Shown here: piece by piece, positions 25,690-60,109 of the stretch
Numbering within the stretch: position 1 is the first letter of the stretch
How the letters are laid out: each line of letters starts with the position of its first letter
Assembly: GCA_032622095.1 (NCBI GenBank)
Contig: CP136068.1
Coordinates: forward strand, 159,421,465-159,485,464
Direction of reading: 5' to 3'
Origin: Siphonodentalium dalli
Taxonomy: Eukaryota; Mollusca; Scaphopoda; Gadilida; Siphonodentaliidae
Length of the DNA stretch: 64,000 bases
Notes under the pieces: generated by a model
Database searches by the model: none
What the model was told of the DNA's origin: nothing
Seen by the model: only the letters and a program-made list of their open reading frames with translations
Position numbers and translations under genes: made by a program

Positions 25690-25925
25690 GAAACCATTGT
25701 TATGTAACAATACTACAGTGATTTGTCATTATAATCCAAACATTAACTTGCTAACCTGTAAATATAATTTCAGCGACACTGATTGGTCAGTTGCCCAAGT
25801 GAGAACATATGCAATGAGACCCACGTTGGGCACGGGTGTCACCCCTTAGCCCCATGAATCATGAATACCAGTTACGCAAGAAGGGTGAATCATGAATGTC
25901 AGTTAAGCAATAAGGGTGATACATG
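25690..25925. repeat. Copy of Y-module repeat, truncated
   Basis: GTGATTTGTCATTATAATC, GCGAC(A/G)CTGATTGGTCAGTTG and two AAGGGTGAATCATGAATACC-type units match 32960-33140 and 34670-34850 in the EGF-gene introns. This copy directly abuts the right end of the foldback element. Confidence 0.75.
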
Positions 25926-29269: not shown

Positions 29270-29734
29270 CTGATAAGTATGCTATCACGAGGTACAAAAT
29301 AAATCAATTAATTGGACGACAGTTGAGAACACTACAGCACTGACATAAAAACTAATTATGGAGATGGAAGATAACTATTTGCATATCATCTCATTCATGT
29401 CTGGTATATGCTATACTCAATACCTTGTGTTTTTCGGACAGAAAATACCGCGCCGAATCAAACGGTATCGTTATCTCATTTTAGCGCCAAAATGGATATA
29501 GAGAATTTTAGCAACGATTGACGATATATGGATTTGTTTTCCTTTTTGCCACAAGTTTCTTAATTCTACACGTTTGACTGAAAATGGATTGGCCGTGGAC
29601 GAGTATAGGTACAATGGTCATGCGAGTCAGGTGACTGTGGCAGTCGTTGGCGATGACAACACACGTTACAAGTTACATGTACGCACATGTGGCTGAATCT
29701 GACTAGTATGTAACAGTTTACCATTTTCCTTGGT

Positions 29735-30058
29735 ATAGTTACCCATACACTCTATCAACTAATTATACGTATAGTACCATACGCTCTATCGATCGCTTAT
29801 ATGTATACTACCCATACACTATATCGACCGCCTGTATGTACACTACCCATACACTATATCAACAGCTTATATGGTATATATTACCGATACACTATATTGA
29901 CCGCTTATACGTATATTACCCATACACTCTATCGGTCGCTTATATGTATATTACCCGTACACTCTATCGATCGCTTATATGTATATTACCCATACACTCT
30001 ATCGACAGCTTATATGTATTATACCCATACACTCTATCGACCGCTTTTATGTATATTC
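29735..30058. repeat. Minisatellite running into an exon acceptor
   Basis: About ten units of about 33-36 bp, (C/A)CCATACACTCTATCGACCG followed by CTTATATGTATAtta. The last unit becomes the 3' splice site of the EGF exon at 30062 (TTTTATGTATATTCCAG). A one-to-two-unit version precedes the paralogous exon at 35866. Confidence 0.9.
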
Positions 30059-30061
30059 CAG

Positions 30062-30175
30062 ACACAGATGAATGTATGTCTAACCCGTGTCAAAATGGCG
30101 GATCTTGTATGGACGGAACGAATATGTACCAATGTGCATGTGTTCCAGGATTCAATGGAACAAACTGTGAAAATG
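30062..30175 (+). CDS. EGF-like exon 1 (calcium-binding type)
   Basis: A 114-nt exon between acceptor TATATTCCAG and donor GTAAGT-like GTAAGTACT, phase 1 on both sides, encoding one complete EGF module. It reads [15 protein letters not shown], a [10 protein letters not shown] stretch, then [11 protein letters not shown], with all six cysteines. The D.DE..N..Y pattern fits calcium-binding EGF. CQNGGSC fits the POFUT1 O-fucosylation consensus between cysteines 2 and 3, and NGT is an N-glycosylation sequon. Such modules act outside the cell in adhesion or matrix proteins. The upstream exon is not identified. It lies in block X1 with paralogue X2 (exon 35866). Confidence 0.92.
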
Positions 30176-30385
30176 GTAAGTACTGTATGTCGTTCCATAA
30201 CCACCACAGGATGATTCGTTTATAACTCCAGGATTCAACGGAACTATATATGAAAATGGCAAGTAAGTCGTTCCACAACCGCCACATGCGAATTCATTTT
30301 AACTCCCGGATTCAAAGGAATAATATGTCAAAATGGTATGCAACTCGTTGCATAATCATGACCGTTTCACTTTTGTATAGCTTCG
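30145..30385. repeat. Three tandem relics of the EGF exon 3' end and donor
   Basis: CC(A/C)GGATTCAA.GGAA..A, then TGAAAATGG(T/C)A and TCGTTCCA(T/C)AACC, repeat at 30145 (the real exon), 30228 and 30305, 77-83 bp apart. The second and third copies have lost cysteine codons and most of the donor. Block X2 has two such copies (35949, 36032). Confidence 0.8.
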
Positions 30386-33103: not shown

Positions 33104-33590
33104 CATGAATCAATAAGGGTGAATCACGAATACCAAATAACCAAGAAGGGTGAATCACGACTGCCAGTTAACAAAGAAGAGTGAATCGTGAATACCAGTT
33201 TAACAAGAAGGGTGAACATGAATACCAGCTAAACAAGAAGGGTTAATTGTGAATGCCAGTTATTCAATAAGGGTGAATCATGAATGCCACCTTAACAAGA
33301 CTGGTGAATCGTGAATGCCAACTAAACAAGAAGGGTTGATCATGAATATAAGTTAAACAAGAAGGGTGAATCACGAATACCAGTTAGGAAATAAGGGTTG
33401 ATCGTGAATATCAGTTAAGCAATAAGGGTGAATCACGAATACCATTTAACAAAGAATGGTGAACCGTGAACACCAGTTAAACAATAAGGGCGAATCATGA
33501 ATACCAGTTAACCAAGAAGGGTGAATCACGAATACCAGTTAACAAAGAAGGGTGAATCACGAATACCAGTTAACCATTAAGGGTGATACT
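33104..33590. repeat. Intronic tandem repeat, about 31-bp unit
   Basis: About 15 units of the form GAATACCAGTTAACAAGAAG GGTGAATCACG, with frequent small changes. The counterpart in block Y2 is 34812-35180 with fewer units. A two-unit relic lies at 25860-25920. Confidence 0.92.
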
Positions 33591-34811: not shown

Positions 34812-35180
34812 CCATCAATCAATAAGGGTGAATCACGAATACCATATAGCCAAGAAGGGTGAATCACGACTACCAGTTAACACACTTTAGGAAGGGTGAA
34901 TCGTTAATACCAGTTAAACAAGAAGGGTGAATCGTGAATACCAGTTAACCAAGAAGGGTGAAACATGAATACAAGCTAAACAAGAAGGGTGAATTGTGAT
35001 TGCAGTTATTCAATAATGGTGAATCATGAATGCCACCTTTACAAGAATGGTGAATCATGAATATCAGTTAAACAATAAGGGTCGATCATGAATATCAGTT
35101 AACAAAGAAGGGTGAACCACGAATGTCAATTAACAAAGAAGGGTGAATCAGGAATACCATTTACCAATAAGGGTGATACT
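34812..35180. repeat. Intronic tandem repeat of block Y2
   Basis: About 11 units of the GGTGAATCACGAATACCAGT type, homologous to 33104-33590. Unit number and order differ, so the array has changed since the block duplication. Confidence 0.9.
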
Positions 35181-44984: not shown

Positions 44985-45946
44985 AATATAATGGACACAT
45001 CTAGAGACGTGCATCCGTTAGGATATAATGGACACATCTAGAGACGTGCATCCGTTATGATATAATGGACACATCTAGAGACGTGCATCTGTTAGAATAT
45101 AATGGACACATCTAGAGACGTGCATCCGTTAGGATATAATGGACACATCTAGAGACGTGCATCCGTTAGGATATAATGGACACATCTAGAGACGTGCATC
45201 CGTTATGATATAATGGACACATCTAGAGACGTACATCCGTTAGGATATAATGGACACATCTAGAGACGTGCATCCGTTAGGATATAATGGACACATCTAG
45301 AGACGTGCATCCGTTAGGATATAATGGACACATCTAGAGACGTGCATCCGTTAGGATATAATGGACACATCTAGAGACGTGCATCCGTTAGGATATAATG
45401 GACACATCTAGAGACGTGCATCCGTTAGGATATAATGGACACATCTAGAGACGTGCATCCGTTAGGATATAATGGACACATCTAGAGACGTGCATCCGTT
45501 AGGATATAATGGACACATCTAGAGACGTACATCCGTTAGGATATAATGGACACATCTAGAGACGTGCATCGTTAGGATATAATGGACACATCTAGAGACG
45601 TGCATCCGTTAGGATATAATAGACACATCTAGAGACGTGCATCCGTTAGGATATAATGGACACATCTAGAGACGTACATCCGTTAGGATATAATGGACAC
45701 ATCTAGAGACGTGCATCGTTAGGATATAATGGACACATCTAGAGACGTGCATCCGTTAGGATATAATGGACACATCTAGAGACGTGCATCCGTTAGGATA
45801 TAATGGACACATATAGAGACGTGCATCCGTTAGGATATAATGGACACATCTAGAGACGTGCATCGTTAGGATATAATGGACACATCTAGAGACGTGCATC
45901 CGTTAGGATATAATGGACACATCTAGAGACGTGCATCCGTTAGGAT
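44985..45946. repeat. 37-bp minisatellite, about 26 copies
   Basis: The unit is ATATAATGGACACATCTAGA followed by GACGTGCATCCGTTAGG. Most copies differ by at most one base. Recurrent variants are GTACATC, a one-base-shorter GCATCGTTAGG, and CATATAGAG. The unit contains TCTAGA, and no reading frame stays open through all units. Confidence 0.97.
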
Positions 45947-52016: not shown

Positions 52017-52020
52017 TGTC
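52017..52020. other. 4-bp target duplication TGTC, left of LTR element
   Basis: TGTC directly precedes the left LTR and recurs directly after the right LTR at 59664-59667. Confidence 0.8.
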
Positions 52021-52234
52021 TGAAACCAAAACAGACCATTGTATTCAGTTTACACATGGTTTATTCTATATTAGATGTCATTATAAATGGTAAAGCAAGA
52101 TGTCAGCCAATACGTGTCTTGGTCGGTCGGTGGTCAGTTCTGTTCTGTCATTCTCGGTAGCTGGGAGTGACGTCACATCCTCGGGTGCACTCGGACCGGA
52201 TAACCGGTACTCTTCGGGACCTAATACCGCTACA
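52021..52234 (-). repeat. 3' LTR
   Basis: 214 bp, about 85% identical to 59451-59663. In the element's sense it starts TGTAGCGG and ends GGTTTCA, so it has TG...CA termini. It carries a TGACGTCA CRE-like palindrome (52168-52175) in the presumed U3 and AATAAA (52060-52065) toward the R end. Confidence 0.9.
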
Positions 52235-52713
52235 TTCCCCCAAGCTTTGAAAAGAGGACCCTGATGGAGGGGGTTGAAGAATTCGTCCATCCATCGTCAT
52301 TAGTCAGTCCAAGTTCCCACAAGACTTCTGTTACGTCATAGACCTCCGTGGGCTCGGTTTCAGAGTCTTGTAGTCGACGCATGGGATCCTGAACATCGGA
52401 TGACTGACGAACACTTGTAACTTGGTCGAGGAAGGCACCGTCATATGGATGGCTGGCAGAGTGGAATTTCTCAGCATCTCGTATCATCCAACTACCATTT
52501 TCTGTCATATCTGGTAATGTCTTCGCCATTGTATCGGTCAAATGATTGTCTGGCCAGCTTGTTTACACCGCCCAATGTCTTGGCTCCATTGGGTGACCAG
52601 TTAAGTTCTTGATCCGGAACGCATGTCGTAGTTACAGTGAGTTCCTTCTGTCGAACCGTATAGAGGTGGTCTGCACTATGTATAATCTGGCCATGGTGAA
52701 TAGCTGCTGACAT
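52230..52713 (-). pseudogene. 3'-most ORF remnants of the LTR element (ORF3)
   Basis: An ATG at 52713 opens a 73-codon frame (HHGQIIHSADHLYTVRQ, then ELNWSPNGAKTLGG) ending at 52492. It overlaps a second frame by about 50 nt, open from before 52541 to TAG at 52230-52232 (MAKTLPDMTENGSWMIRDAE, later EPTEVYDVTEVLWELGL). The second frame crosses the polypurine tract and stops at bases 3-5 of the 3' LTR. The overlap suggests one old frame broken by a shift. 52714-53110 between ORF3 and ORF2 has short open pieces in all frames with several stops. Confidence 0.5.
52235..52243 (-). other. Polypurine tract of the LTR element
   Basis: In element sense TTGGGGGAA directly precedes the 3' LTR (TGTAGCGG). 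It is short and partly pyrimidine upstream. Confidence 0.6.
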
Positions 52714-53110
52714 TCACTTCTTGGTCCACTCGACCGATAACCATTGACTGGGTTCTGCTTGTTATGATTCGTGGAATATGTACATCAATGCAGAGTGAAA
52801 GAGAAACCGGGGCCCGGCATTCTCAGTACAACATACAAATGGTGGTTCAATGTCGGTGTAGTATATCAGCAGGCCCGATATCCATTACCGACAACGCAAC
52901 CCCAATGTTGGATTCACTCATTGCTGCATTAACTGTGAACATCATTTAAACGTTGCGAACAAGCATATGATTACGTTCAGTGAGTCATGGAGGTACATTT
53001 CCATACTGGAACCCGCATCATTCTGGCGACAAGTAATGGTCTTAATAGTTTGACATGGGGTCTGATGATACTCTGACCATGGCTGTGGATCTCTTCATTG
53101 TAGATAGTAA

Positions 53111-55363
53111 TTATGATCCACGTCTGATTCGGAAGCCTTTGCCACCAGGATCCCAAGGCCATTGATCTGGAGAACCTGCTTTATTTCGGAGCCAGGTGTG
53201 ATCCATTGGATTCTGGCTTGGGTTCTCCCTGTATGTTTGGTCTGTTCTTATTACATGTATGTAACCTGTACTTAGTTTGGAGATACAGGTAGACCTTTCT
53301 GGACTGTCCTCAATTATCTGTGGTATTCTGTATACTCCATGTAGGTCAATCGGACAGCCGTATACATATTGTGACAATCTCTGGTCAAGATTAACAAAAT
53401 GCTGACCTGATGCTCCATTGTCAAATTGAGGCGGTTCTGTACCTACCACATCGCTGTCTTTGTGCTCATCAGGTGGTTTATTCTGGTACTGCTCCTCGTG
53501 TTGACCATGGGATATTGGCAGGGTACAGCGACTATCTTCTGGATTGCCATTTATTGTAAATATGTCCTTACATAATTTATAGTTCGGCTGGCCGCATACA
53601 TGTAGTATCTGTGACAACACATCATTCGTGGTTACGAGAGGCTTCATATATATTGAATATTGCTCTGGAGATTCATTGTCGAAGAAATGTGCCCTGTTCA
53701 TTTGACCCACAGTTTCATCAGAAGAGTCAAAGGAAACCGGACTTAGAACTGTTGGAACAGCATCTAAGACCTTAGCGGATGACTCCAGAACTGTTGGAGC
53801 AGCGACTGAGAGGTTAGTGGATGTTTCCAGGACCGCCGAATCAGCATCATAGAAGCCTGATGTGATCGAATATATGGTAGAGTCAAAGCCAATTTTCTCG
53901 AATTCAAGGAAAGATGTATCGCCATCGGATGTCAAAGAATCAAACTGTGTGAGAAGAGGGATCTGGGCGTCTCTCAGATCGCCTCTGTCTCCACCTGACC
54001 ATCCTTGCTGCTGAAGCAGAACTGCATCCTCTTCATAATCTATTGAATTCAGCTCCAGAGAAACGCCATCGTCCCATTCTAGATTGATATCATAGATCGG
54101 CGACTCTTCATCTTGTAAGAAGCCTGTGTTGGCATCGTGGTTGATATATGTCTCATCCGGTGATAGTGGTTTATTCTGAACTGCATTTCTTGAATAGAAT
54201 GCATACTCATCTGGTGTCAGAAGTTGCATGTCTTCTATTTCAGACTGTACGTTCAGCAGTTTGTCGGACAAGGTTGTCAGTTCCTGCACCAGTGTCCCTG
54301 GTTGTTCATCGTTGATAAATTGCCCAGACGCAGAATCATTTACCTCCAACACTAAAGCGGGTGTCGGCCTAATAGGAAGACTCGTGGTTGTTGGAGCTTC
54401 AGTCTTCAACTCAGAGCTGGGATACATCAGAGTTGGATCGAGAGACTAAGATCTGGATGTCAATGTTTCTGGCAATGGCGATATTGGGACATCATAATCT
54501 CGGAAATCGAGACGGGGAGGATCCATGTGCATTGAAGAAGACCCGGGAAACCATTCTTCTGAGGGTGGATCACTCTGCGCCGAAGAAGTTTGTCGAGAAT
54601 CTTTGCCGACCTGGAGCTTTGTGACTATATTATTGTCAGCTACTTCTTCCCCAACTAATTCAATTGGGCTGCCCTCTACTCTCTTATTTCCATGTGCCGA
54701 CGTGGTGGCTATTGTTGACGGCTAATTGTCCAGGACTGCCGTTTTGGATGCCATCTTTTCTGATAATCCGCCTTGTAGCAAGTTTTTGACAAGTAAGTGA
54801 GATTGTTTGGAGGTTGGCTGGTTGTAGGCCACTTGCCCTGCCATAGTGTCTTCTGGTGTGTTTACCGTTTGATTAGGATGGCAATATGCATGAACACTGT
54901 CGGTCTCTATGGAACTCGTCCATAATGGTTGGTCCTGTTCGGCCATTCTGGATGCCATCTGTATCGCAGACTTGGGAGACATTTCTTCTGAGGGCGATAC
55001 TGGAACATCATAATCTCGGAAATCGAGACGGGGATGATTTCTCTGTATCGAAGACTTGGGAGACATTTCTTCTGAGGGCGATACTGGAACATCATAATCT
55101 CGGAAATCGAGACGGGGATGATTTCTCTGTATCGAAGACTTGGGAGACATTTCTTCTGAGGGCGATACTGGAACCTCAAGGTCTCGGGAATCAAGACGGG
55201 GAGGATCACTCTGCGCCGAAGAAGTTTGCGAGGCTTTACTGTTGTCCGCCACCTCTTCCCTATCTAAATCAATTGGACTGCCCCTCGCTCTCTCATGGCC
55301 ATATGCCGAGTCCGTGGTTATCGTCCACTATTGGGTGTCCGTAGCGACCGGTTTGGATGCCAT
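53111..55363 (-). CDS. ORF2: acidic 750-codon frame with three in-frame TAG
   Basis: An ATG at 55363, 8 nt after the ORF1 stop, opens a frame that reaches TAA at 53111 with only three interruptions, all TAG (55328-55330, 54722-54724, 54446-54448). The longest uninterrupted part is 54427-53114 (438 codons). The N-terminal third carries three 28-residue repeats with DYDVPVSPSEEMSPK, and its opening segment (MASKPVATDTQ...) is duplicated further on (MASKTAVLDN...). The rest is rich in Asp, Glu, Ser and Thr (SPIYDINLEWDDGVSLELNS), with few cysteines and no membrane segment. I recognise no family. It is either a decayed gene or a frame read through UAG. Confidence 0.6.
54957..55208 (-). repeat. 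84-bp coding tandem repeat, 3 copies
   Basis: Each 84-bp unit encodes 28 residues around RLDFRDYDVPVSPSEEMSPK. The two downstream copies are nearly identical and the first (LDSRDLEVP) differs slightly. A fourth, diverged copy (RLDFRDYDVPISPLPET) lies at about 54460-54510 after the third TAG region. Confidence 0.93.
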
Positions 55364-55371
55364 CTTCTCTG

Positions 55372-56901
55372 TCAATTGATTTGAAGTTTCGAGTGGAGGC
55401 ATGTGAATTTGTGCCCCAGTGCATCTATGCTCTCCAAAGCTGGTTGGCGATGGGTGGATGTCCTCTTGGAGTTTCCATATTTGTCTTCAATATATGATGA
55501 GCGGTCTTGGACGGCCATTTTGGATGTCCTCCTGGAATTTGCATATTTGGATTCAATAGTGTCAAATTTCAGTTCACGTAAGGTGGACACTAAGCCATAC
55601 AGTCTTCGACTTCCCGAATAGCCCTTCTTAGCATAGTCTTCAATCAATGCTCGTACTTCGTTCGCAACCCTGACTGACTCTTGCAGCTCGACTCGGAAAT
55701 AACTTCTCCGCTTTTGGGGGATCCTTTTCTTCATGGTAGAATCATCATCTTCCCCCTTCGTAGAACTCCTGTATATACTCTGGAACTCCTCTTGGACTAG
55801 ACGGACCACGGAATGGGTCTGTCGCCATTCTTCTTGTGCATTATCTCCAAGTTTACGTATTCGCTCGAGCTCGATCTTAGCTTCTTGGAGTTTCATCGGC
55901 TGATCATATTCCCGCAGATCATCCGAGAGTTCCCACATCTCCCTATTAGTTCTGTAATATTTGCATAGAATATTTCCCTTCTCCGATTCTAGTTCTTGTA
56001 GAAAGCAAACTACATTGTATAGGACTGGACCGCCGATATTTTGGGTATGTTTATAATCATCCACAAAGTCGTGCACCTCCTTCTTAAGACCACGTGACTC
56101 TTGCTTCTCTTCTTGAAAACACGTTACGTGATCCCCAAACTGGATGTCCTCTATCTCTTGGACCATTTCATGTCTCCATTCCTCATTCTTTCGCTCCCGT
56201 CTTGGTTTATTGTTCGATTCTTTCTTGCCAATGGGTTTCAATGAGGGTGATTCGATGGGCTTATCACAATGCCCTACTGACGTGTAATGATTGACCCAAC
56301 TGGAAATCTTTTTATAGAACACCCGTATCTTGGAATTTATGCCCCTCCATTTTTTCTCTGTATTATTTCTCAATTGAATCCTTTGCATGACATCGTTCTT
56401 TTTGTTCTCGGCTTCCAGATTACCCATAGGTTGGTCAATTTTGCCTACAACATCACAGTAAATATCTGTAATGTCCCTGTCGGCTTCGTACAATTCATTC
56501 CGAGCTTTCAACCTATCAATATTTAGACCATGTATGGTGTATCCTACATTAATTTCACACAAGCCCCTATCAACATAGTCTGCAATTATGTTCCGCACTT
56601 TATTTGCAAGATCCTCTGACTCTAGTTCCTCTTCGCGAAATCGTTCTTTCTCATCTTGGGACCGGACGTTGATTATTTCGTCGATAATTTTGAGTTTCAA
56701 GTTCTGTGATTTTATCCGTATTTCAATGGCTATGTGTTTCAATTCCAAAACTGCCAGATGTAACTGTTCGTCTTTGCTTGGCCATGAGCTAGACACGTAC
56801 GATGGGTATGGATTCTGTCGATAACCAAAGCTCAGATCTGGGTTAACACCACACATATGTGCTTGACCCTGTGGGTTGTGACCTTGATTAGTACTGGACA
56901 T
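55372..56901 (-). CDS. ORF1: 509-aa charged helical protein with internal repeats
   Basis: The first ATG in frame is at 56901 (AAGATGT context); the stop is TGA at 55372-55374. The protein is rich in Lys, Arg and Glu. Three related segments are visible: FREEELESEDLANKVRNIIA (about 82), FQEEKQESRGLKKEVHDFVD (about 264) and FRVELQESVRVANEVRALIE (about 406). Each is followed by a DY...G..LY.(L/V) stretch; the first two continue into a DQPM.(N/K)L and KKW or EEW helical tail. This suggests triplication of an approximately 130-residue helical domain. There is no signal peptide, membrane helix, CCHC knuckle or enzyme motif. Its position after the leader is where gag normally lies, but I cannot show it is a Gag. 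The intact length argues that it was recently functional. Confidence 0.75.
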   Translation of the reverse strand: MSSTNQGHNPQGQAHMCGVNPDLSFGYRQNPYPSYVSSSWPSKDEQLHLAVLELKHIAIEIRIKSQNLKLKIIDEIINVRSQDEKERFREEELESEDLANKVRNIIADYVDRGLCEINVGYTIHGLNIDRLKARNELYEADRDITDIYCDVVGKIDQPMGNLEAENKKNDVMQRIQLRNNTEKKWRGINSKIRVFYKKISSWVNHYTSVGHCDKPIESPSLKPIGKKESNNKPRRERKNEEWRHEMVQEIEDIQFGDHVTCFQEEKQESRGLKKEVHDFVDDYKHTQNIGGPVLYNVVCFLQELESEKGNILCKYYRTNREMWELSDDLREYDQPMKLQEAKIELERIRKLGDNAQEEWRQTHSVVRLVQEEFQSIYRSSTKGEDDDSTMKKRIPQKRRSYFRVELQESVRVANEVRALIEDYAKKGYSGSRRLYGLVSTLRELKFDTIESKYANSRRTSKMAVQDRSSYIEDKYGNSKRTSTHRQPALESIDALGHKFTCLHSKLQIN

Positions 56902-59438
56902 CTTAATTGAACCCGAACCTAAATAAATCAGGCGTAACAGGCTTATCAATTATTATATTCAAGTCTGATCAACCAAGCGTCACGGTAAGCAAATACCTAA
57001 TTTCAAGCGTTTCAGAGTATGATTGGAATATCAATTGATTAGTGTACAAGTATTGAGTACTACAAGAGATTTTACCCTCTAAACTTCTGAAAACTCGGCA
57101 GGTACGTTTTAATTTATTAATTTCTATCAATTTAAATCAATACGCAAGAAAAAAAAACAATATTTGAATATTCCAACAAGAAATCTGAGCAGCTACTAGT
57201 ATCTTATGAATAATATAATGCAATTTCCATAGGAATGACAGAACACAAACCTAGGTTCCAAAAATCATTCCCAGCAAATCTGCATCAGGAAAATACACAA
57301 CAGGGCTCAGAAAACTTAAGCAATATTCCTAAGATAACAATAATAATGGAAATAAATATACCTAAGCTGATACATATAAGCCTTATTGCACAGAGAATAC
57401 ATAACTGATACTAATTATTACACTACAATTAAGTTAATACAGAGCAAACGTGTATCAGATATTCACCAAAATTAATACATATATATCAGTGTCTCAAAAG
57501 TACAAATAACTTGTTTTGAGAACCTGATCACAGTGACTAAAATATATGAAACAAAAACCCAATCAATACATTATCAGCACTAAAAGTAAACATAACTTAT
57601 ATTGGCAAGCTGATTGCGAAACTACTGGTAGATAAATTGAATTGATGTGTATCAATTTAACTACAACATATAGGCTTAATCCAGTCCGCTTTTTTATGAT
57701 AAGAGTAATCTCCCTGGAAGAACGGCAGGATTATGCAATAATTTCAGGTTATCTCCGCATCAATTTGACTACTGAGTGAATAAGAAATATAGGTACATGT
57801 ATAACTGACAAATGAACAACTATAGACACAACTATAAATTATTCTTGAAGGATTCTGTTAAGAACACAGTGAAATATTTATACAGTCAGCGAGTTATGGA
57901 AATATAGAACTTAACAGAAGAAGTTGTATATATGGGAACTGTGAACCAATTCAGAAATTTATGGAAAATGCCAACTCAAAATACTACGAAAATATAACTT
58001 TATCTGATAGGCTACACACAAATAATTAATTCATTTATCAAAAATAACCACATACAAAAATACTAATGAAAAAATATGCATATATCATAGATGTGTATAT
58101 AATTTATTGAAGAATAAATCAGGGTCTCATAAGTTAATAAACTTATGCAGAGAAACTGATCACATTGACATTAGAAATATAATAAATCAGTGTCTCACAA
58201 GTACATATACTCATACAGAGAAACTAATCACAATGACATGAAAATATATAAATAAATGCGAAACTACAATTACCCAAATTTGAATTAAACGAGAAAACTC
58301 GCCTTAATTTATCAAAATCTCTGATTAAAATGTCAAATGGAGTGGAACTCTTGTTGAGCTGACAGAGCTGTGTCTTATAATTGTGAAATGTCCATTATGA
58401 AATCTGACATTTGACATCAGATGGAACAAGTAGTTTCATACTGATTTTACAAGAATTTCCTTTCAGTTCAGTACTGGTTGAGCTGGTTTAATTAATATGT
58501 TTATACTGGAAACTGTTCAATTTAGTATATGAGCTGTTGAAGTTGATCAAATTACTGTCACATTTTAACTCTGGATATGTTGATATCTGCATAAGGATGA
58601 ACATGTAATTTTCAGGCTGCTTGGTTTAATAATCCATATTCAAATTAAACGAGTGGCTCGCGTTAATCTATTAAAAGTCAAGAGCATGACAATAATGTTG
58701 AGTCAACCTTGAGAATTGTTGATGTCCAATTTAAACTCAGATATTTTATATCAGATTGAACAATAAATTTCAGGCTGCTTTCAAAGTTTGTCAAGAATTT
58801 TATTTCAGTTGAATCGTGGTTGAGCTGGTATAATGAAAATACTTGAAAATTGTCCAATTTATTGAGAACTGGCAAATATGTTATTTTCACCACTGGTATT
58901 TCACTGGTATGACATCTCAATTGGTTTGATGGGTGGAACAGAACTAATCGTGTTGATAATTGATGAGCTGTGGTATGTTCAAATCATCTGGCAGATTGAA
59001 CTACATTGTGATTGACATGTTGTGTGAAAAATAGGAAAGTTTATCTGACCGTAATTCTGGAGTCACTGGGCAGCGAAGTTGTTCAAACACCTTCCTCTCT
59101 CCCCTGTCTTAAAAAATCGGCCGGATGAATGGTGAAACTGTATTTCGACGTCCGGAAACTGTATTTTACGTGAGGTCTATTTTTAGACCACCGCGGTGAT
59201 TTTGAAGCAAACGGCCGCAAAAATGGCGAATTTACACAGATAAACATATTGTCAGTAGAATTCATCGATCACAATATTAATTGCATAGATTTAGCAACAT
59301 TATACACCGTCGAACACTGAAAGTACAATCTTCAGCGTCGGCAAATGTGACGAAAATGGTCGGAAATTCATAAGTCATTTTGGAAAGTTTTTCACGTCAA
59401 AATTGCATCAAAATCATCCTCGCATAGATTCGAAGTGA
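56902..59438 (-). other. Long AT-rich leader of the LTR element
   Basis: About 2.5 kb between primer site and ORF1 with no convincing coding frame. It contains duplications: 58277-58600 against 58636-58880 (AATTAAACGAG, CTCG(C/G)(C/G)TTAAT, TGGTTGAGCTGGT) and 75-bp repeats at 58108-58255 with a relative at 57483-57545 (AATCAGTGTCTCA.AAGTACA, AACT(A/G)ATCACA.TGAC). Such a long leader could hold introns, packaging signals or decayed gag. Confidence 0.6.
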
Positions 59439-59449
59439 CCTCGTCGCCA
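59439..59449 (-). other. Primer binding site, tRNA-Ser type
   Basis: In element sense the LTR ends ...CA, then T, then TGGCGACGAGG. This is complementary to CCTCGTCG plus CCA, the 3' end of eukaryotic tRNA-Ser(GCU). The match is 11 nt and then breaks, though TTCGAA occurs shortly after, as in the T-arm. Confidence 0.78.
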
Positions 59450-59450
59450 A

Positions 59451-59663
59451 TGGAACCAGAACAGGACATTGTATTCAGTTTACATCATGGTTTATTCTAT
59501 ATATTAAGTCACAATACGGTAATTCAACATGTCTGCCAATATCGGTGTTGTCTTGTCGGTGTCCAGTTTTGTTCTGTCATTCTCGGTAGCTGGGAGTGAC
59601 GTCACATCCTCGGGTGCACTCGAACCGGATAACTGGTACTCTTCGGGACCTAATACCGCTACA
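59451..59663 (-). repeat. 5' LTR
   Basis: 213 bp, TG...CA in element sense (TGTAGCGG to GGTTCCA). It has AATAAA at 59491-59496 and TGACGTCA at 59597-59604. The U3-side 100 bp is nearly identical to the other LTR, and most differences are in the R/U5 side. TGTC follows at 59664-59667. Confidence 0.9.
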
Positions 59664-60109
59664 TGTCTTGATGAAACGCAATTAAATAGTGATTTATTTA
59701 CAACATCATTTTGAACGGAAAATTACATCAGGTCCGAATGGACAGTAGGAGTGGGAAAATAACATAATATTATTCAGACGTGAAAGCTAATGAAACAAAA
59801 TTAAAAGATACAAAGCAAAATAGACTAACGTATAAATTCAGCCTCATGGTTTATATACTTTTTCGGCATAGTGACTGGAAATTCAATGCGACTGCATTGA
59901 TTCCCAAGCCAGTGCATTTAATTTGAATGCGGTCCTTAACTGAGTTTCATTGGCGCTATGACCACATTGTAAATGGCCAAGGACTGCGTTGAAGGGAAAT
60001 TTTATTTTGAGAATATGTATTATGTACCCTGTATTGATTACACTTTACACGCACTGTACTATAATCTGATTTGTTAATATACCAATAACATTATTTGTTA
60101 GGGTGTTAT

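Follow-up and report, generated by a model that had tools for sequence, protein, structure and literature searches.

How can an element that has all the termini of a long terminal repeat (LTR) retrotransposon, and none of the genes by which such elements copy themselves, spread through a genome, and what does it carry in their place? The question is raised by a locus in the scaphopod mollusc Siphonodentalium dalli. The window, that is, the entire 64,000-nucleotide stretch analyzed here, corresponds to C8:159421465-159485464 in an assembly of 2.227 Gb and 9 contigs, which is the assembly covered by the genome searches, and contains at 52021-59663, in the minus sense, an LTR element of the form TGTAGCGG...GGTTYCA. 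An earlier note, made from the letters of this DNA alone and referred to below as the original prediction, described it as a non-autonomous LTR retrotransposon with captured or newly evolved genes instead of gag-pol. Non-autonomous LTR elements are usually viewed as RNAs that are merely carried along; here, a young family keeps one large protein of no known ancestry, which persists from one copying event to the next and apparently evolves faster than neutral.

A young, dispersed family with a single long reading frame

The window element belongs to a young, multi-copy family that is dispersed in the genome. The query with its LTR (40 of 244 candidates scored) yielded at least 41 matches, including about ten pairs spaced 3.8-15 kb apart, and chance pairing of the LTRs is therefore excluded. 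ORF1, an open reading frame (ORF) of 509 amino acids (aa) in the element's interior, produced at least 95 matches (84 of 157 candidates scored), which were grouped into 72 loci; open frames reach at least 1,000 aa in 30 of these loci and at least 800 aa in 42. A third query, with the LTR of the copy L061 (40 of 263 candidates scored), showed that LTRs adjoin many intact ORF loci, including both ends of C3:56324435-56332199, so that the further copies with the same LTRs, for which the original prediction proposed to search, do exist. Forms of the same ORF are also borne by two loci without an ORF1 match, C2:86085500, which has the leader, and C6:14776615, which has paired LTRs.

Elsewhere in the genome, ORF1, a repeat-containing middle part, and a long acidic frame make up a single uninterrupted frame of ~1,050-1,300 codons (stop to stop, 1,258 codons in L061 and 1,300 codons in L063), with the ending ...NHTWLRNKAGSPDQWPWDPGGK. 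ORF1 and the acidic frame, previously taken for two genes, are actually the two ends of one ~1,300-codon ORF. The window copy is a decayed one, in which the single frame of the family is broken into three pieces.

Seven other LTR pairs, namely those with both ends fetched, of which two represent one segmental duplication, differ at 0/213, 0/211, 0/208, 2/214, 2/214, 2/213, and 4/203 sites (gap columns excluded), and the family is young because these differences amount to 0-4 sites per pair. With such LTR pairs and no reverse transcriptase found by Pfam, the family has transposed recently without a reverse transcriptase of its own. The segmental duplication, at C4:137.68M and C4:138.56M (L002-L005, L062), carries the same element copy in flanks that are 97.7-99.8% identical.

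The encoded protein has a head rich in proline and tyrosine, between one and three helical units that bear basic patches, serine- and proline-rich repeats, and an acidic tail ending in WDPGGK. The L074 subfamily has one helical unit and L075 has lost most units, in frame. All subfamilies read share the ending and the repeat units. The description of ORF1 as a 509-aa, internally triplicated helical protein holds for the length and the repeats (two-sequence BLASTP comparisons, 4e-8 for unit 1 versus unit 2 and 2e-6 for unit 2 versus unit 3), with the qualification that the third unit is only partial.

No significant sequence relative of the protein was found in Pfam, the PDB, or 5.8 billion proteins; with the intact ORF of L063 as the query, in place of ORF1 of the window, there was no homologue at E <= 0.001 among 4,467 candidates. 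In the window copy, Pfam detected no family past the cut-off in ORF1, in the acidic frame, or in any of the element's three sense frames, in agreement with the claim that its interior ORFs lack a retroelement domain. Pfam likewise detected none in the L063 ORF, and no gag or pol was recognized by eye in the ORF lists of L061, L062, L072, and L074. Neither the interior gag and pol (reverse transcriptase, RNase H, and integrase) of autonomous Ty3/Gypsy elements of the mag/SURL type nor a recognizable Gag domain, such as that of TR-GAG elements, was found. A single-sequence AlphaFold model of ORF1 had a predicted local distance difference test (pLDDT) score of 47.8 and was left out of the fold search. 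One helical unit, modeled from a three-row alignment of the units in the window, is predicted to form four helices of 29-49 residues (pLDDT 77.1, predicted template modeling score 0.57). Foldseek searches with this model returned 396 weak matches, none of which reached E <= 0.001, and the best 50 of them include no Gag capsid. A significant match of ORF1 or the acidic frame to a known Gag or Pol, which would have spoken against novel genes, was found neither by sequence nor by fold.

Frame preservation and amino-acid change

Of 34 ORF-bearing loci, two of which repeat the copies L061 and L063, 17 with open frames entered the selection analysis; these frames were chosen for openness, and the absence of stops is partly due to that choice. 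For 12 overlapping pairs, neutral simulation gives 3.2 to 14.5 stops per pair, and the ratio of nonsynonymous to synonymous substitution rates (dN/dS) ranges from 0.3 standard deviations below to 3.1 standard deviations above the simulated neutral value. Insertions and deletions (indels) are multiples of three in 37 of 50 cases in the ORF (best aligned stretch, 8 disjoint pairs); in the leader (12 copies compared with L061), the corresponding count is 37 of 152. In L075, the frame is kept through a large deletion. The reading frame is preserved in this family.

The amino-acid sequence behaves differently from the low dN/dS that the original prediction proposed as a check on its two ORFs: the frame is preserved, though nonsynonymous relative to synonymous change (N/S) equals or exceeds the neutral level. 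In the 16 frames of the 8 disjoint pairs, 921 changes are nonsynonymous and 245 synonymous, which gives a nonsynonymous fraction of 0.790 versus 0.742 expected (z 3.9), where the neutral expectation was built with the leader's own substitution spectrum under a null model that leaves out neighboring-base effects. Under stricter alignment filters, the excess has z values of 4.0 and 3.0; under the loosest filter, 7 of the 8 pairs lie above the pooled expectation. Overall, amino-acid changes are ~1.3-fold over the neutral simulation. The three frames of the leader, used as a control in a partly different set of 8 pairs, gave z values of 0.11, 1.67, and -0.34. When the protein was divided into 13 regions, N/S reached 2.1 to 4.3 times neutral in residues 80-160, 400-480, 480-560, and 640-720, the value for the last of these being based on 3 synonymous changes. 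The other nine regions are at 0.69-1.27 times neutral, and those below neutral are residues 0-80 (0.97), 800-880 (0.82), and 960-1100 (0.69). Because the frame is kept open and amino-acid change exceeds neutral, the ORF protein is very probably real and perhaps subject to diversifying selection, which the substitution counts support but do not prove.

A second element without pol and the candidate explanations

A 15-kb LTR pair on C7 was considered as a candidate autonomous partner and rejected, its extra length being a second LTR element (C7:1091360-1099539; L073:1861-9101 with L008:1-918) nested in the opposite sense in the window-family copy C7:1085273-1100332. This second element is young, with 467-bp LTRs identical at 466 of 467 positions, a primer-binding site that begins TGGCGCTGCGAG, and an ORF of 1,626 aa, and its length leaves no room for pol. 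Residues 640-1000 of its ORF, counted from the first ATG, match P0002, a protein with Ty3_capsid and zf-CCHC domains (E 1.5e-21, 28% identity), and a CCHC motif was recognized by eye; for the ORF itself, Pfam calls neither Ty3_capsid nor zf-CCHC, and the PDB search gave no relative.

The second element and the window family are alike in having a single giant ORF, no pol by length, WDPGG near the end of the protein, and a common C-terminal block, GWxGGDRGDLRDAQIPLLTxFDSL (BLASTP 3e-8 in a two-sequence comparison with composition correction off; 82 bp at 85% DNA identity, E 2e-21). The second element differs in its 467-bp LTRs, its primer-binding site, the Ty3-type capsid implied by the P0002 match, and the CCHC motif seen by eye. 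The block may be a module that pol-less elements replicating together have exchanged. The gene of the window family is not entirely foreign to Gag, since the block recurs in a Gag-like ORF.

The explanation we favor, which in our estimate falls just short of an even chance, is that the family is a satellite-like non-autonomous LTR retrotransposon with its own particle or packaging protein and a borrowed reverse transcriptase and integrase. Under the mechanism that we infer, the element RNA would be reverse-transcribed and integrated in trans by an autonomous Gypsy-type element of the genome, where Gypsy-type integrases are many (at least 150 H2C2 matches, with 150 of 3,153 candidates scored). 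The ORF protein, predicted to bind its own RNA, would be a stand-in or partner for Gag and might dock into particles through the C-terminal block shared with the Gag-like ORF, and the rapid evolution of the middle and of parts of the helical region could stem from conflict with the helper or host defense. The charge layout of the protein was also counted in favor of this satellite-like reading. Its most specific form, in which gag-pol was lost or never present, reverse transcriptase and integrase are borrowed, and a hypervariable non-Gag particle or packaging protein of repeated helical units docks to the helper Gag by a C-terminal module traded between pol-less families, is possible but doubtful as a whole. 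The evidence supports the original prediction insofar as it concerns a non-autonomous LTR element that has a gene of its own; the two-ORF, low-dN/dS, and no-Gag-link parts need to be changed.

Several points weigh against the satellite-like explanation. No helper with the same LTR was found, and none of the 88 LTR or leader sites of the family lies within 15 kb of the 150 H2C2 matches scored out of 3,153 candidates, a small sample. The block shared with the second element is short, and a C-terminal comparison from residue 1041, which cuts off the first half of the block, stays within shuffles (54 versus the best value of 59 in 200 shuffles), so that the evidence for sharing comes from the BLASTP and DNA matches. 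The fold predicted for the helical unit is generic. The pairs used in the selection analysis share ancestry and may have recombined, which makes the z values too optimistic, and a requirement for openness of the frame alone would likewise produce N/S near or above neutral.

Among the alternatives, a counter-defense factor fares best, although we consider it rather unlikely: the protein would disarm host silencing or restriction, or a competing element, the contest would drive its fast change, and packaging would be left wholly to the helper Gag. The concentration of the N/S excess in 4 of 13 regions and the variable number of helical units agree with such a role, but no significant Pfam match to a known factor was found, and the block shared with the Gag-like ORF points to a role in the particle. 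That only the frame is selected, with a long translatable stretch keeping the genomic RNA stable (for instance, against nonsense-mediated decay) while the amino-acid sequence hardly matters, appears improbable. Some plant RNA viruses and coronaviruses have defective RNAs that accumulate only if they contain an open frame, and the near-neutral N/S in 9 of 13 regions, the avoidance of stops and frameshifts, and the persistence of in-frame deletion and unit-number variants are all in line with this explanation; yet the pooled N/S is above neutral, not equal to it, and the ending and the repeat units are conserved across the subfamilies read. Less probable still is a highly divergent Gag, its capsid changed past recognition, which would make the family TR-GAG-like. 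The size and layout of the protein resemble those of the ORF in the second element, including the block and WDPGG near the end, but there was no capsid or zinc-knuckle match, and the helical unit, modeled as above, had no Gag capsid among its best 50 of 396 PDB matches. Gag capsid helices are shorter than the 29-49 residues predicted for it. Chance flanking or capture of a host gene is very improbable, with nothing beyond the absence of retroelement domains in its favor, and the single-copy gene with coincidentally flanking LTRs that the original prediction had considered is already contradicted by the finding of ORF1 at 72 loci, many of them LTR-bounded and young.

LARD and TRIM elements are not known to carry a maintained protein gene and BARE-2 has a defective gag, which sets them apart from the window family. 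Like it, these elements (named in PMC10025401) are mobilized in trans and have LTR-type ends. The plant TR-GAG elements (Chaparro et al. 2015, cited in PMC10025401) are, like the window family, LTR-bounded and non-autonomous with one coding part kept; TR-GAG keeps a recognizable Gag domain, whereas searches in the window family revealed neither a capsid nor a zinc knuckle, and its likeness to a Gag-like ORF is limited to a short C-terminal block. Element-borne proteins beyond gag and pol, another likeness, are described in the abstracts of reports on Retand TRP28 (PMC11963269), where some elements are non-autonomous, on LTR elements of bdelloid rotifers (PMC5408684), and on the CERV protein of Cer1 (PMC10309623), but there the extra ORFs accompany gag/pol-type elements, whereas here the extra protein is the sole long ORF. 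The literature consulted also included PMC6238403. Titles and the beginnings of abstracts, with few subscription journals among them, contained no LTR family with a non-Gag protein as its only gene, which is weak evidence. In the most specific form of the satellite-like explanation, the family would correspond, among retrotransposons, to satellite viruses, which have their own coat and a borrowed replicase. The family makes it testable whether parasites of retrotransposons, like satellite viruses, can evolve structural or defense genes of their own, and what the driving force of the contest is.

Structure of the window copy and its surroundings

The termini of the window copy are those of an LTR retrotransposon and, as originally described, agree on one orientation, the minus sense. 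The 5' LTR (TGTAGCGG...GGTTCCA, 59451-59663, with at least 41 matches in the genome) and the 3' LTR (TGTAGCGG...GGTTTCA, 52021-52234) form a TG...CA pair, flanked by the target-site duplication TGTC at 52017-52020 and 59664-59667. Such duplications were present in 3 of 3 copies looked at, all of 4 bp (TGTC in the window, GAAA in L061, and GGAT in L062). The 11-nt primer-binding site TGGCGACGAGG is located one base past the 5' LTR (59439-59449, read 59449-59439), and the polypurine tract AAGCTTGGGGGA one base ahead of the 3' LTR (52236-52247, read 52247-52236).

Between these signals, all on the minus strand, are an AT-rich leader of ~2.5 kb without a long frame, conserved among copies (56902-59438), a coding part that as a whole spans 56901-53111, and a 3' region of ~0.9 kb (52248-53110), which is ~93% alike in L061, L062, L063, and L072, a figure that includes neighboring sequence. 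The coding part comprises ORF1 (55372-56901), the N-terminal portion with two full helical units and a partial one; the middle portion with 28-aa tandem repeats (54722-55327), with frame breaks on both sides; and the acidic C-terminal portion (53111-54427), the ORF2 of the original prediction, which extends a few residues beyond ...DQWPWDPGGK. A 99-aa frame at 52230-52529, in the 3' region, was also seen in L072.

The two LTRs of the window copy differ at 22 of 210 sites. Up to column 100 the count is 3 of 99 (97% alike), and beyond it 19 of 111 (~83% alike), an unevenness that simple ageing does not explain. Such a split, in a copy that kept its target-site duplication, suggests recombination or gene conversion between subfamilies.

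The primer-binding site matches over 11 nt what is presumably the 3' end of tRNA-Ser(GCU); some subfamilies differ near the end of this stretch (20 sites compared). In L048 and L053, the LTR is followed by the 18-nt TGGCGACGAGGATGGGAT and then by a jump to internal sequence, and these 18 nt are presumably the complement of the 3' end of the same tRNA. Misplaced plus-strand transfer, with the tRNA-templated plus-strand stop landing wrongly, would give exactly such junctions. The proposed tRNA-Ser priming is backed by these two copies. Splicing was considered for the shortened leaders of L033, L041, L048, and L053; in L048 and L053, the junctions instead carry the 18 nt of presumed tRNA complement, in keeping with misplaced plus-strand transfer. 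Direct joining of the LTR or the primer-binding site to internal sequence was observed in L048, L053, L020, L033, and L041.

Outside the element, the window contains an open frame with an EGF-like stretch, recognized by eye, at 29707-30225, perhaps an exon of a host gene. There is also a tandem array of a 37-bp unit at 44986-45946 (26 copies, 97% matches), and 31-bp tandem arrays of nearly the same unit (CAAGAAGGGTGAATCATGAATACCAGTTAAA) occur in three places, at 33111-33586, 34820-35176, and 25855-25919.

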